Origin: Lentilactobacillus curieae
Lineage (GTDB): Bacteria > Bacillota > Bacilli > Lactobacillales > Lactobacillaceae
Direction of reading: 5' to 3'
DNA: 64,000 nt
NCBI RefSeq assembly: GCF_000785105.2
Contig: NZ_CP018906.1
Span: forward strand, 1,054,001 to 1,118,000
Under the pieces are notes generated by a model. That model saw only the letters and a program-made list of their open reading frames with translations, ran no database searches and was not told the origin of the DNA. Positions 19,925 through 56,503 of this stretch are shown here, piece by piece. Made by a program: the position numbers and the translations under genes. How positions within the stretch are numbered: position 1 is the first letter of the stretch; each line of letters starts with the position of its first letter.

Positions 19925-19951
19925 CAAAAAAACCAGTGATTGCTCACTGGT
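19925..19951 (-). terminator. terminator of the cold shock gene
   Basis: ACCAGTGA (19932-19939) and TCACTGGT (19944-19951) form an 8-bp stem with a TTGC loop; on the - strand seven U follow. Confidence 0.85.
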
Positions 19952-19965
19952 TAAAAGCTGTTGAA

Positions 19966-20166
19966 TTATTCAACAACGTTAACGTTAGCAGCTTGTGGTC
20001 CACGGTCGCTGTCTTCAACGTCAAGAGTAACTTTTTGGCCTTCGTCTAATGACTTGAAGCCGTCTTTTTGGATAGCTGAGAAGTGAACGAAAACGTCACC
20101 GTCGTCAGTAGTAATAAATCCGTAACCTTTGTCAGCGTTGAACCATTTAACAGTACCTTGTTTCAT
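19966..20166 (-). CDS. csp: cold shock protein
   Basis: A 66-residue single-domain RNA chaperone that binds single-stranded nucleic acid and helps translation in the cold. The RNA-binding motifs RNP1 (KGYGFI) and RNP2 (VFVHFS) are intact, and the length is exactly that of the CspA/CspB family. A consensus promoter lies about 130 bases before the start codon, so the mRNA has a long 5' leader, as cold shock genes usually do. It is a single-gene unit with its own terminator. Which csp paralogue it is cannot be told. Confidence 0.97.
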
Positions 20167-20330
20167 AATTATGAAACCTCCTTGCGCTCTTGCGCGATAA
20201 AAAATTGTTAATGTATCTAGTTGAACGTAATTCCAAGGAAGTTATTTCATAATACTATAAAACAAGACCTTAAAAATCGAAACCTAAAACACATTGACTA
20301 TAATATACCAACCGGCTCGAAATATGTCAA
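20167..20330 (-). promoter_or_regulatory. promoter and long 5' leader of the cold shock gene
   Basis: On the - strand a perfect -35 TTGACA (20325-20330) is 17 bases from -10 TATATT (20302-20307). The resulting leader of about 130 bases ends in a small hairpin GCGC-AAGA-GCGC (20184-20195) directly before the AAGGAGG (20177-20182 region). Such a leader could gate translation by temperature, as in other csp mRNAs; this is inference. Confidence 0.75.
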
Positions 20331-53081: not shown

Positions 53082-54326
53082 CTATTTTCTAATCTGGCCA
53101 TCTCCCGAGATTACATACTTCGTTGTAGTAATTTCGTTGAGTCCCATTGGCCCGCGAGCGTGTAGCTTTTGGGTGCTAATACCAATTTCGGCACCAAACC
53201 CAAATTCAAATCCGTCAGTGAACCTAGTTGAAGCATTGACGTAAACGCAGGCTGAGTCAATCAGCTGCTGGAATTTTTTTGCATGAGCGTAGTTATTAGT
53301 GATGATTGATTCTGAATGACCAGTTGAATATTCATTGATGTGGCTAATAGCGTCATCGACTGAGTCGACTACCTTAACTGCCATAATCAAATCATTGTAT
53401 TCAGTTGACCAATCATCCGCTGTTGCTGGTTTGATAGAACTTACGATTTGACGACTCTTATCATCACCACGAAGTTCCACACCATTATCCTCCAGTGCCT
53501 GAGCAATCGTTGGCAACATTTCGTCAGCAACGTCAGCGTTAATTAATAGTTTTTCAGCGGCGTTACAAACGCTTGGGCGCTGGACTTTGGCATTGACTGT
53601 AATGTCGGTGGCCATTTTTAAATCGGCACTGTCATCGACGTAAATGTGGCAATTGCCGGCACCAGTTTCGATTACGGGAACAGTAGAGTTTTGAACAACA
53701 GCGTTGATCAGACCAGAGCCACCTCGAGGGATTAGTACGTCAACATAACGGTTGAGATGCATTAATTCATTGGCAGTTTCGTGACTAGTGTCATGCAAAA
53801 TTTGGATGGCGTTTTCGTCGATTCCGTTTTTATTGAGCACCGTTCTGAGGATGTCCACGAGGGTGGTGTTAGAATTGATTGCTTCCTTACCACCCCTTAA
53901 AATTACTGCGTTACCGCTCTTAAAGGTGAGGGCAGAAGCATCAACGCTAACGTTTGGCCTGGCTTCAAAAATCATGGCAATAACCCCAAGTGGCACGCGT
54001 CGTTGTTCGATGATTAACCCATCTTTGTTGGTAAATCCAGTATCAACGTTTCCGATTGGATCCGCTAAATTAGCAACTTGACGAAGGCCTTCAGCCATCC
54101 CGTCAATTCTTTCAGGAGTTAGTTTTAAACGGTCCACAAATTTTGCAGGTAAATCATTGGCGTTATCTAAATCCTTGTTATTTGCAGTAACGATTTCATT
54201 TGTGTGCTCAGTTAATGCAGTAGCAAATTCATTCAAAACTTGGTTTTTGGTTTCAGTATCTAAATTAGCAATTTGAAATGCGGCTTTCTTGGCGTTCGCA
54301 CCAATTTCGTTTAAATTATCTGTCAT
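53082..54326 (-). CDS. proA: gamma-glutamyl phosphate reductase
   Basis: A 414-residue aldehyde-dehydrogenase-fold enzyme that reduces gamma-glutamyl phosphate to glutamate semialdehyde with NADPH in proline synthesis. Key parts are IFEARPNVSVDAS, the NAD site ILRGGKEA, the catalytic Cys in QRPSVCNAAEKLL (about residue 256) and the late RGPMGLNEITTTKY. Two adjacent ATGs are possible; the second (54326) has the better spacing to GAGGAGG. The stop of proB (TGA) overlaps both, so translation is coupled. It is followed by the structured element near 53000. No proC is in the window. Confidence 0.95.
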   Translation of the reverse strand: MTDNLNEIGANAKKAAFQIANLDTETKNQVLNEFATALTEHTNEIVTANNKDLDNANDLPAKFVDRLKLTPERIDGMAEGLRQVANLADPIGNVDTGFTNKDGLIIEQRRVPLGVIAMIFEARPNVSVDASALTFKSGNAVILRGGKEAINSNTTLVDILRTVLNKNGIDENAIQILHDTSHETANELMHLNRYVDVLIPRGGSGLINAVVQNSTVPVIETGAGNCHIYVDDSADLKMATDITVNAKVQRPSVCNAAEKLLINADVADEMLPTIAQALEDNGVELRGDDKSRQIVSSIKPATADDWSTEYNDLIMAVKVVDSVDDAISHINEYSTGHSESIITNNYAHAKKFQQLIDSACVYVNASTRFTDGFEFGFGAEIGISTQKLHARGPMGLNEITTTKYVISGDGQIRK

Positions 54327-55156
54327 CATTTGGCCTCCTCTTGAAGAGCGGTTGTGGAGTTGCTAAACAAAGTTCCAATTGGCTCACCAGCTAAAATATC
54401 GAAAATAATCCGGGGGTCCTCACCATTAGCAAGTACCATTTGGCGGTTTTCGTCAATCATCCGTTTAGCAGCGGCCAGTTTAGTTTTCATACCACCAGTT
54501 CCAAAACGACTCCCGGTTCCACCAGCCACGGTGAATGTTTCATCATCGATTGAATTAATTTGACTGATTAGATTGGCATCAGGGTTCTTCTTTGGATTAG
54601 CATCATAAAAGCCGTTAACATCCGAGAGAACAATTAATAGATCTGCATCAACGTGGCTGGCTACAATTGCCGAAAGTTGGTCGTTGTCGCCAAAAGTAGT
54701 GCGGTGATCCAATTCATCTGCGGCGACGGTATCATTTTCGTTGACGATGGGAATAATGTTGTCCTTAAGTAGACAGTTGAAGGTGTTCATTACGTAGTTG
54801 TTGCTTTTGGGGTAATCAAAAACGTCATGGGTCAAAAGCACCTGGGCGATATTGTTTAGATAGTGGTTAAACCGTTGGGTAAACAGAGTCATGAGTTCTG
54901 ATTGGCCAATTGCTGCCAGAGCTTGTTGAGCTCCGATTTCGGTTGGCCGCTCTTTAAGATTTAACTTATTTAAACCAACCCCAATTGCTCCAGAAGATAC
55001 CAAAATCAGTTCCTTGCCCTGGTTATTGAGCTCACTCAATACATAAGCAAGCTGATCGAAAGTCCGGAGATTTACCGTCCCGTTAGGGTGAATTAAGCTA
55101 CTTGTTCCCACTTTAACTACGATTCTTTGTGATTTAATTTTCCGATTGACTGCCAA
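54326..55156 (-). CDS. proB: glutamate 5-kinase
   Basis: A 276-residue amino-acid kinase that phosphorylates glutamate, the first step of proline synthesis. The motifs VVKVGTSSLI (about residues 11-20), LVSSGAIGVG and the NENDTVAADEL and FGDNDQLSAIVA segments are standard. There is no C-terminal PUA domain; the short form is usual in many Firmicutes. Translation begins at TTG 55156, six bases after AAGGGTGA; the longer frame to 55246 runs through the T-box leader and cannot be coding. It heads the proBA operon. Confidence 0.93.
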   Translation of the reverse strand: MAVNRKIKSQRIVVKVGTSSLIHPNGTVNLRTFDQLAYVLSELNNQGKELILVSSGAIGVGLNKLNLKERPTEIGAQQALAAIGQSELMTLFTQRFNHYLNNIAQVLLTHDVFDYPKSNNYVMNTFNCLLKDNIIPIVNENDTVAADELDHRTTFGDNDQLSAIVASHVDADLLIVLSDVNGFYDANPKKNPDANLISQINSIDDETFTVAGGTGSRFGTGGMKTKLAAAKRMIDENRQMVLANGEDPRIIFDILAGEPIGTLFSNSTTALQEEAK

Positions 55157-55355
55157 ATAATCACCCTTTTTTCTAAAAAAAGCTCTGCTTTGAAATTGAG
55201 ACACCCATTGGGCGGTACCATTCTCATTCAAAGCAGAGCTTCGCACTTTTACAGTTATAATATTAATTTTTATTATAGAAAGGTAGGATTCGCGACTTCA
55301 AAGTTCTTTCAGCAATCGAACTTCTCTCTTTAGTGCGCTACTTGGTCTTTCAGTA
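55157..55355 (-). ncRNA. short proline T-box leader with an unusual terminator
   Basis: On the - strand the T-box core TGGTACCGCC (55211-55220) is framed by TGAGA/TCTCA and GCCC/GGGT, a complete antiterminator. Stem I is short and carries GAA-T-CCT-A, giving specifier CCT (Pro) at 55285-55287, opposite AGTA in the loop E position. UGGU suits a tRNA with ACCA end, as tRNA-Pro. The terminator arms AAGCTCTGCTTTGAA and TTCAAAGCAGAGCTT (around 55180-55241) plus U7 enclose the antiterminator instead of competing with it. Transcription termination control of proBA by uncharged tRNA-Pro is the natural reading. Confidence 0.88.
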
Positions 55356-55360
55356 AAGTA

Positions 55361-55389
55361 ATAATATGCAATTTTTATTCTTATGTCAA
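55361..55389 (-). promoter_or_regulatory. promoter of the proBA T-box transcript
   Basis: A perfect -35 TTGACA (55384-55389) and -10 TATTAT (55361-55366) 17 bases apart on the - strand, ending five bases from the stop codon of the amidase gene. Confidence 0.85.
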
Positions 55390-55393
55390 CTGT

Positions 55394-56503
55394 TTAGCTG
55401 AAATCATCTGAAGTAACTGTGGTTGAACTTGAGTTAGTTTCATTGCTTGAGCTAGTAACCACTTCGCTACTTGAATCAGTAGCAGTGTCATCAACGGCAA
55501 CCTTGGCACTTGCTTCTGAGGCCTCGTCAGCACTAATGTTCAATGCCTTTTCGTATACCCAGTACTTCTTAGCAGAATCACTCTTTGAGAAACGGATTCG
55601 ATACCAAGCGTACTTACCATTTTCCTTCTGGCCAATGTTGTCAATGTAGACTTTCTTACCAGTCTTAGCTTTCACTGAACTCCAGCTATAACTTTTAACA
55701 CCTGCTCTAGATCCCTTTACATGGTTGTAAAGGCGGTATGACTTGTACTTGTTACCAAGTGAAGCAGTATCGTTAGATGACTTGTAGCTAACCTTATCGT
55801 AACTAGCAGCTGGTGTGTGTGCTTCAACGTACAAGTTATTGTAGTTGGTTTTTACTAGCTTATAGAATTGTGCAAATGAGTATGAAGCCCCAAAGTACTT
55901 CTTACCCATTGAAGCATAATAATCCTTTGGATCAGAATGGTTGGTACCACCTAGATACTTAGAAACAGCCCCATGAGACCAGACAGTTCCTTTACCATCA
56001 TAAACAGCGTCGTTTGGTTTCAATCCATACTTATGCAAAATGTAGGCAGTATAGTAAGCCGCATTAGACACTTCTTTAGCAAATGCTGACTTGCTGTGAA
56101 CCCGAACTTGCTCGAATTGAACAAAGCGAGCGTTGGCAACTGGGCCAGCTCCCCAAGCAAGGTACTTAGTGTTTGCGATGTTGATAATTCTGCTGGCATC
56201 GATAAATGAATGTACGAATGCAGCGTTATAATTTTTCTTCATGTACGCAATTTCATTGTAAATTGTTGAGTTTGGGTTTGCAGTTTCGTGGACTACCACA
56301 CCCTCAGGTTTACCTTTATGGCGGTAATTATTATGTGGGAATCCTCCCCAAACAGATGATGTTACTGAAGCATGGCCAATCCCATTATTGGCAATGTAGC
56401 TATTAACGCTTTGTGCATTAGCAGTTTGACTACCTGAAGCGGCGAGCAAACCGAATGCAGCAAATGACAATGTGCAGATAGCTTTGATGATACCTTTCTT
56501 CAA
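55394..56503 (-). CDS. secreted N-acetylmuramoyl-L-alanine amidase
   Basis: A 369-residue secreted peptidoglycan amidase. A signal peptide ends near TANAQ (residue 30). The Amidase_2 (type 2, PGRP-like) zinc domain covers about 45-215, with VVVHETANP (first His), SHGAVSKYLGGTNHSDP (later His and Asp region). Residues about 235-325 form a bacterial-SH3/GW-like wall-binding domain (YKSYRLYNHVKGSRAGVKSY). A Ser/Thr/Asp-rich tail ends the protein. The start is TTG 56503, six bases after AAGGAG. Its stop lies five bases from the -35 of the proBA promoter, so it has no terminator of its own. Confidence 0.88.
   Translation of the reverse strand: MKKGIIKAICTLSFAAFGLLAASGSQTANAQSVNSYIANNGIGHASVTSSVWGGFPHNNYRHKGKPEGVVVHETANPNSTIYNEIAYMKKNYNAAFVHSFIDASRIINIANTKYLAWGAGPVANARFVQFEQVRVHSKSAFAKEVSNAAYYTAYILHKYGLKPNDAVYDGKGTVWSHGAVSKYLGGTNHSDPKDYYASMGKKYFGASYSFAQFYKLVKTNYNNLYVEAHTPAASYDKVSYKSSNDTASLGNKYKSYRLYNHVKGSRAGVKSYSWSSVKAKTGKKVYIDNIGQKENGKYAWYRIRFSKSDSAKKYWVYEKALNISADEASEASAKVAVDDTATDSSSEVVTSSSNETNSSSTTVTSDDFS

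Follow-up and report, generated by a model that had tools for sequence, protein, structure and literature searches.

A proline T-box leader ahead of proBA in Lentilactobacillus curieae, with a terminator that encloses the antiterminator and is predicted to compete with Stem III

In canonical class I T-box leaders (Rfam ID RF00230), the 3′ strands of helices A1 and A2 of the antiterminator serve as the 5′ strand of the terminator (PMC7583486). Mutually exclusive terminator and antiterminator structures are listed among the defining domains of the T-box, and the alaS leaders treated in the same source are described in these terms (PMC4695836). We analyzed a 64,000-nucleotide stretch of the Lentilactobacillus curieae genome (contig NZ_CP018906.1, positions 1,054,001 to 1,118,000; hereafter, the window), in which a leader at window positions 55154 to 55389 of the minus strand precedes the proB and proA genes. 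Like the members of RF00230, it has a Stem I with a specifier and an AG/T-loop module, an RRRxG-Stem III-AA segment, an A1/A2 antiterminator with a UGGNACC bulge, and an intrinsic terminator before the gene. It differs from them in that the 5′ arm of the terminator consists of Stem III plus AA and that A1/A2 stays formed in the terminated fold.

The 15-bp terminator stem lies outside and beneath A1/A2, and its lower helix runs on into A1 (Table 1). The 5′ arm is made up of Stem III, minus its first two bases, and the following AA, and is not the 3′ strand of A1/A2; because it is built in this way, the terminator is compatible with A1/A2 and incompatible with Stem III. The antiterminator itself has the usual 7-nucleotide (nt) bulge, and the RRRxG-Stem III-AA segment is present. 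The minimum free energy (MFE) of positions 55157 to 55400 is −58.7 kcal/mol (z = −3.75), and none of 200 shuffled sequences was as good. An earlier sequence-only reading of this DNA had named the terminator arms, the U7 tract, the TGGTACC bulge, the specifier CCT in its characteristic setting, and the AGTA strand opposite, all of which are found on the minus strand where that reading placed them. It had further claimed that the terminator arms lie outside the antiterminator and share no arm with A1/A2, so that both structures can form together; folding agrees with this, and covariation across related leaders backs an outside terminator rather than a classical shared-arm one. The additional switch that this reading called for would be provided by Stem III, which it had overlooked; Stem III occupies the 5′ terminator arm in the ON state and excludes the terminator. 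The alignment of 21 proB leaders has an A opposite a G, both invariant, at window positions 55202 and 55221 (minus strand); canonical T-boxes have at this place the pair of A1 that is stacked against the end of the tRNA (PMC7583486).

Folding of the lengthening window transcript gives Stem III with 6 pairs and A1 with 5 or 6 pairs at 58 to 66 nt, another fold being predicted for shorter transcripts. At 68 nt, Stem III is down to 4 pairs and the terminator has 7; from 70 nt on, Stem III has no pairs left, the terminator grows from 9 to 15 pairs (16 at the end), and A1 stays at 6. Thus, Stem III and the terminator are predicted to be mutually exclusive, with A1 surviving in the terminated fold. 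The core pair of Stem III has a calculated probability of 0.94 in the nascent window RNA.

For comparison, we assembled 76 distinct leaders of proB and proS genes (hereafter, Pro leaders) from 78 loci, of which L001 to L021 came from DNA similarity searches and the rest from matches to R1, a covariance model of the Stem III-terminator region; repeats from the same genomes, loci L112, L113, L141, and L142, and the later class-level matches L380 to L387 are outside this set. The outer part of the terminator has at least 9 pairs in all 76 Pro leaders, with the 5′ arm upstream of A1, and AA precedes A1 in every one of them, while the RRRxG pattern is found in 66. At terminator position −17, the pairs U-A, C-G, G-C, and A-U all occur, and other positions vary likewise; three A1 pairs are each altered on both sides in a single sequence. 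A1 is retained in the terminated fold of 75 Pro leaders. The exception is the proB leader L018 of genome G015, whose 3′ terminator arm includes an additional CTCATTC, which pairs with the 5′ strand of A1 too; its terminator, excluding A1 as well, may possibly represent an intermediate between the two layouts.

Some changes involve three bases at once, namely, the 5′ base of Stem III, the base shared by the two structures, and the 3′ base of the terminator. At position −10 of the Pro leaders, these triples read ATA in 31, GCG in 18, and GTA in 15 of the 76 sequences, and at position −13 of 46 distinct Ala leaders, CGC is found in 23 and TAT in 7. As read from the alignments, such changes preserve the pairing of Stem III and that of the terminator at the same time. 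In a fixed frame of 65 leaders, chosen from the 76 by three other Stem III pairs, the Stem III pair −22/−10 is kept in 64 (56.0 in shuffles, with 0 of 5,000 shuffles as high), or in 36 of 37 when distinct blocks are counted (30.8 expected), and the pair −23/−9 is also kept in 64 of 65 (61.1 expected; 113 of 5,000 shuffles as high). When stacked pairs are simply counted with free register, 74 of the 76 Pro leaders can accommodate a Stem III of 5 or more pairs. A looser fold test, which accepts any upstream 4-pair hairpin together with A1, is passed by 71 of 73 leaders, three having failed the A1 pattern. The OFF-ON energy gap, taken as the full fold minus the separate folds of the discriminator and the remainder, has a median of −15.5 kcal/mol in the 76 Pro leaders and of −14.5 kcal/mol in 81 of 100 canonical T-boxes (P = 0.31), the other 19 being outside the comparison because no A1 end was obtained for them. 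Since the gaps are similar, the energetic demand on the tRNA seems to be roughly equal in the embedded and the usual layouts.

By its anatomy, the proBA leader is a proline T-box, and it is filed here as such despite a sub-threshold Rfam score. A scan of 601 bases matched RF00230 at positions 55196 to 55357 with 48 bits (E value of 1.8e-9), short of the curated gathering score of 93, which we treated as a screening cut-off; the leader was absent from the 64-kb Rfam scan at the gathering cut-off and from the genome scan at E values up to 1. Four relatives with the embedded layout (L049, L263, L285, and L286) also fall under the gathering score, at 72.3 to 92.5 bits. The AG/T-loop pattern that marks Stem I of the T-box is present in all 20 leaders of the genus, as is the specifier CCT, and the genes that follow, proB and proA, match the specified amino acid. 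Four tRNA loci scanned in the window genome include tRNA-Pro genes with the anticodons TGG (two) and CGG (one). The tRNA-Pro(UGG) gene at L335:1500-1575 has the discriminator base A, so that the ACCA end obtained after CCA addition pairs with UGGU of the bulge. A K-turn motif was not seen by eye in Stem I of the proBA leader. Stem II and element IIA/B, which belong to the canonical class I T-box, were not seen in the window leader: a pattern search did not find IIA/B in L001 to L004 (from the window species and the three that match it best) and found it in 15 of the 20 genus leaders, with an altered form recognized by eye in L013. Both elements are also missing from accepted T-boxes, such as glyQS and the alaS leader of Clostridium acetobutylicum (PMC4695836). 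The proB leader of genome G017 (L003) carries a tandem duplication of the leader start (about TATTACTTTACTGAAAGACCAAGT).

We consider it probable that the proBA leader is a T-box with a Stem-III-captured terminator, on which uncharged tRNA-Pro acts through Stem III; both this route of tRNA action and the sign of the response are what we infer from the sequences and predicted folds. In the proposed mechanism, Stem III, AA, and A1/A2 of the nascent RNA would make up the usual T-box discriminator, and the emerging 3′ arm of the terminator would have to unzip Stem III from the two-nucleotide AA toehold. Uncharged tRNA-Pro would lock Stem III and AA into the discriminator, withholding the 5′ arm and the toehold, so that the 3′ arm could not invade in time and transcription would read through. 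With charged or absent tRNA-Pro, Stem III would be unzipped, and the 15-bp terminator would stack beneath an intact A1/A2. In published work, Stem III is indispensable for function, the antiterminator alone, lacking Stem III, could not bind tRNA appreciably, and the purines flanking Stem III follow the minor grooves of both A2 and the tRNA-bulge duplex (PMC7583486). A comparable strand exchange is found in the ZMP-type riboswitches, where a terminator arm invades a ligand-stabilized aptamer helix (PMC10907184); in the case proposed here, a tRNA would serve as the ligand, and Stem III of a T-box would be the helix that is invaded.

Several observations weigh against this reading. According to the published account, the main effect of the tRNA comes from its stacking on A1 (PMC7583486), and A1 is unbroken in the terminated fold of the window leader. 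The core pair of Stem III reaches a probability of at least 0.5 in 46 of the 76 nascent Pro leaders and stays below 0.3 in 24; in a strict MFE test, Stem III appears in the expected register in 33, in another register in 11, and in neither in 32. Fewer than 5 Stem III pairs fit 11 of the 46 Ala leaders, the Stem III pair −18/−14 shows no covariation (48 of 65 against 48.1 in shuffles), and 9 of the 76 Pro leaders have a canonical-side hairpin of −9 kcal/mol or below. The leaders share ancestry and were partly chosen with a model of the layout, so that the case is overstated both by counts like 76 of 76 and by the shuffle statistics, and the common 5′ arm can let the covariation of one structure spill over into the other.

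The main rival is a steric version of the mechanism, in which tRNA docking fixes the purines of RRRxG and AA together with the geometry at the base of A1, thereby blocking a downward extension of the helix, and Stem III is a passive spacer. The contacts of the flanking purine string with the tRNA-bulge duplex in published structures (PMC7583486), the presence of AA in all 76 leaders while the length of Stem III varies, and the 24 leaders with a weak Stem III all speak for it. However, the self-complementarity of Stem III has been kept through changes at some positions, the triples included, which exceeds the needs of a spacer, and we regard the steric version as rather unlikely. The conservation of Stem III also finds no reason in a reverse or tRNA-indifferent attenuator, in which the antiterminator would nucleate the terminator and the tRNA would favor termination or leave it unaffected. 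The location of A1/A2 at the apex of the terminator hairpin, where it draws the arms together, fits this idea, but the genes that follow these leaders are proBA and those read as proS or alaS, which are expected to be induced by uncharged tRNA, and the specifier (20 of 20), the T-box bulge, and AA (76 of 76) are conserved, making such an attenuator quite improbable.

That the leader is a decayed T-box with a constitutive terminator, in a lineage that has also lost Stem II and IIA/B, would account for its Rfam score of 48 against 93 bits and for the failure of the IIA/B pattern in L001 to L004. Nevertheless, the leader has kept an intact specifier, AG/T-loop motif, and bulge along with both structures, the relatives that retain IIA/B have the same terminator, and glyQS and the C. 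acetobutylicum alaS leader function without these elements (PMC4695836), so decay appears very improbable. The sequence-only reading had suggested a switch of another kind, with either CTTTGAA of Stem I (positions 55297 to 55303) pairing with the 3′ terminator arm or CGCAC of Stem I (55333 to 55337) pairing with GTGCG just before the terminator (55242 to 55246). These sites are all present in the window, and in the full-leader MFE structure, the region of CGCAC is indeed paired to that of GTGCG. Across the genus, however, CTTTGAA occurs in 1 of 20 leaders and an exact complement of the GxGxG stretch in just 3 of 20, which leaves these pairings hardly credible as the switch.

A similarity search of 60 genomes found the leader in 21, comprising the window genome, 19 other Lentilactobacillus genomes, and one Limosilactobacillus genome, while four Lentilactobacillus genomes (G001, G006, G014, and G020) gave no leader match in this search. 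The long hairpin is predicted in all 20 leaders that were folded (19 from the genus and the one from Limosilactobacillus). The filters of the R1 searches were strict and may have missed leaders, and the genome draws overlap; the searches gave matches in 63 of 397 genomes of the family (7 of 40 genera), 24 of 295 genomes of the order, 12 of 348 genomes of the class, and 2 of 299 genomes of the phylum, the window genome included. The two weakest family matches (L141 and L142, from genera g4 and g10) lack the layout, leaving 61 genomes from 5 genera. Within Lactobacillaceae, the layout is found before proB and, in one further genus, before proS (L140). In the loci read from further families of the order, and from orders of the class other than this one, it likewise precedes proS; the proS and alaS labels were read from the first residues, and in L367, L381, and L382, the chosen frame reads otherwise. 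The loci L112 and L113 (family f4, genus g17) have an embedded T-box before a short gene, and in L112, an alaS-like frame is located about 600 bases beyond that gene. Among 80 upstream regions of named proB loci, searched over about 1.2 kb for TGGNACC only, the T-box core was detected in just two Lentilactobacillus records (L167 and L168, the latter with an additional match further upstream). The Limosilactobacillus locus L172 was probably missed by this pattern owing to its TGGTAACG core, as in L136.

To judge how frequent the layout is, we classified 108 Rfam T-box loci, which include 36 of the 37 matches in the window genome (L064, with an E value of 0.96, was dropped), 21 matches each from G782 and G539, and 30 of the 98 matches from five other genomes, a selection that favors high scorers. 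As many as 100 of these loci are canonical, 4 are embedded only, and 4 are unresolved, under a rule that assigns a locus to the canonical type whenever its canonical-side hairpin reaches −9 kcal/mol; by this rule, 9 of the 76 Pro leaders would also count as canonical. In a separate check of the Pro leaders for a classical terminator downstream of the bulge, the 9 leaders with such a hairpin at or below −9 kcal/mol each had an embedded hairpin stronger by 13 kcal/mol or more, and the classical terminator was rejected as a candidate. Six of the 100 canonical loci (L048, L282, L300, L310, L312, and L313) hold a stronger embedded-side hairpin with another U run, by about 4 to 13 kcal/mol, and five of them, all except L310, read by sequence as ordinary shared-arm terminators. 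The embedded-only T-boxes are the alaS leader of the window genome, the proS leader of G782 (L263), and the proS and alaS leaders of G539. G782, which belongs to another order of the class Bacilli, has a proB T-box of the same gene (as judged by its first residues) and family with a canonical terminator (L252; canonical hairpin of −20.4 kcal/mol, no embedded one), in contrast to its embedded proS leader, and its alaS leader (L261) is canonical as well; therefore, the amino acid does not determine the layout.

Of the 23 alaS matches in the genus, 21 loci were read, and these fold with arms flanking the antiterminator. R2, a covariance model built from 15 alaS leaders of the genus, matches 273 of 345 genomes of the order (73 of 79 genera), which is not a count of embedded leaders. 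The best 30 R2 loci, from two families, are all embedded, and G539 adds a third family. When these 30 are taken together with L380 to L387, L112, and L113, 39 of the 40 are embedded by pattern; the remaining one, L385, has a TGATACC core that the pattern skips and also folds into a long hairpin. The alaS T-boxes of Bacillus subtilis and C. acetobutylicum described in PMC4695836 are likewise tRNA-sensing, and that of C. acetobutylicum also lacks Stem II and IIA/B, but they are presented with mutually exclusive structures, whereas those read here from Lactobacillales have the embedded layout. Judging from these sequences, the layout is not peculiar to one leader and is shared by proS and alaS T-boxes. 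We see an even chance that the T-boxes for alanine and proline in Lactobacillales and in some other Bacilli form a separate class of expression platform, with the antiterminator present in both states and Stem III under tRNA control.

The coordinates of the leader and its genes are listed in Table 1. The window genome is a single contig of 2.1 Mb. Judged by pattern, a similar promoter is found in 17 of the 20 genus leaders. The proB frame is open across the terminator as far as a GTG located at Stem III (54326 to 55246, minus strand), probably by chance.

Table 1. Features of the proBA locus in window coordinates
Feature	Position	Strand	Comment
-35 box TTGACA	55384-55389	-	17-nt spacer to TATTAT; 11/12 match
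-10 box TATTAT	55361-55366	-	Promoter pattern TTGACA-17-TATTAT
Stem I	55278-55351	-	Basal helix GAAAG/CTTTC; AGTA strand, 55339-55342; AG bulge and distal loop, 55302-55331; from Rfam alignment
Specifier loop GAATCCTA	55284-55291	-	Specifier CCT (Pro), 55285-55287
Short linker between Stem I and purine string	55251-55277	-	Stem II and IIA/B not seen
RRRxG purine string AAGTG	55244-55248	-	Precedes Stem III; motif as in PMC7583486
Stem III, CGAAGC-TCT-GCTTTG	55229-55243	-	Last 13 nt double as part of terminator 5′ arm
AA linker	55227-55228	-	Discriminator purines in ON state; top of terminator helix in OFF state
Terminator 5′ arm AAGCTCTGCTTTGAA	55227-55241	-	15-bp stem
Antiterminator	55197-55226	-	A1 TGAGA/TCTCA, 55222-55226/55197-55201; bulge TGGTACC, 55214-55220
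A2 of antiterminator, GCCC/GGGT	55210-55213/55203-55206	-	From folding and alignment
Terminator 3′ arm TTCAAAGCAGAGCTT	55180-55194	-	15-bp stem
U7 tract	55175-55181	-	First two U belong to terminator 3′ arm
proB, glutamate 5-kinase	54326-55156	-	TTG start; NCBIfam TIGR01027, 288 bits
proA, glutamate-5-semialdehyde dehydrogenase	53082-54329	-	NCBIfam NF001221, 611 bits

The other T-box of the window (L054; 18474 to 18694, plus strand; Rfam score of 74.8 bits) has an ordinary shared-arm terminator of the canonical type, as the sequence-only reading had held. It is followed by a gene whose start resembles what we take to be a ketopantoate-reductase-type protein. A match to the cspA thermoregulator (104 bits) is located at positions 19926 to 20281 on the minus strand.

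A description of the embedded layout was not recognized in the open-licence literature searched, which does not include the surveys of Vitreschak (2008) and Gutierrez-Preciado (2009). Priority is therefore uncertain, as these two large T-box surveys may have noted it.

The accepted logic of transcriptional T-boxes is that terminator and antiterminator exclude each other; this does not apply to these leaders, and yet the layout has been kept with compensatory changes. The annotation of T-box terminators should accordingly not presume a shared arm. Stem III has long been treated as part of a variable linker (PMC7583486); if the mechanism proposed here is true, Stem III can itself be the switch. 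Should the Ala and Pro leaders of Lactobacillales and some other Bacilli indeed represent a separate class, there would be T-boxes whose terminator and antiterminator are not mutually exclusive, contrary to the textbook definition.
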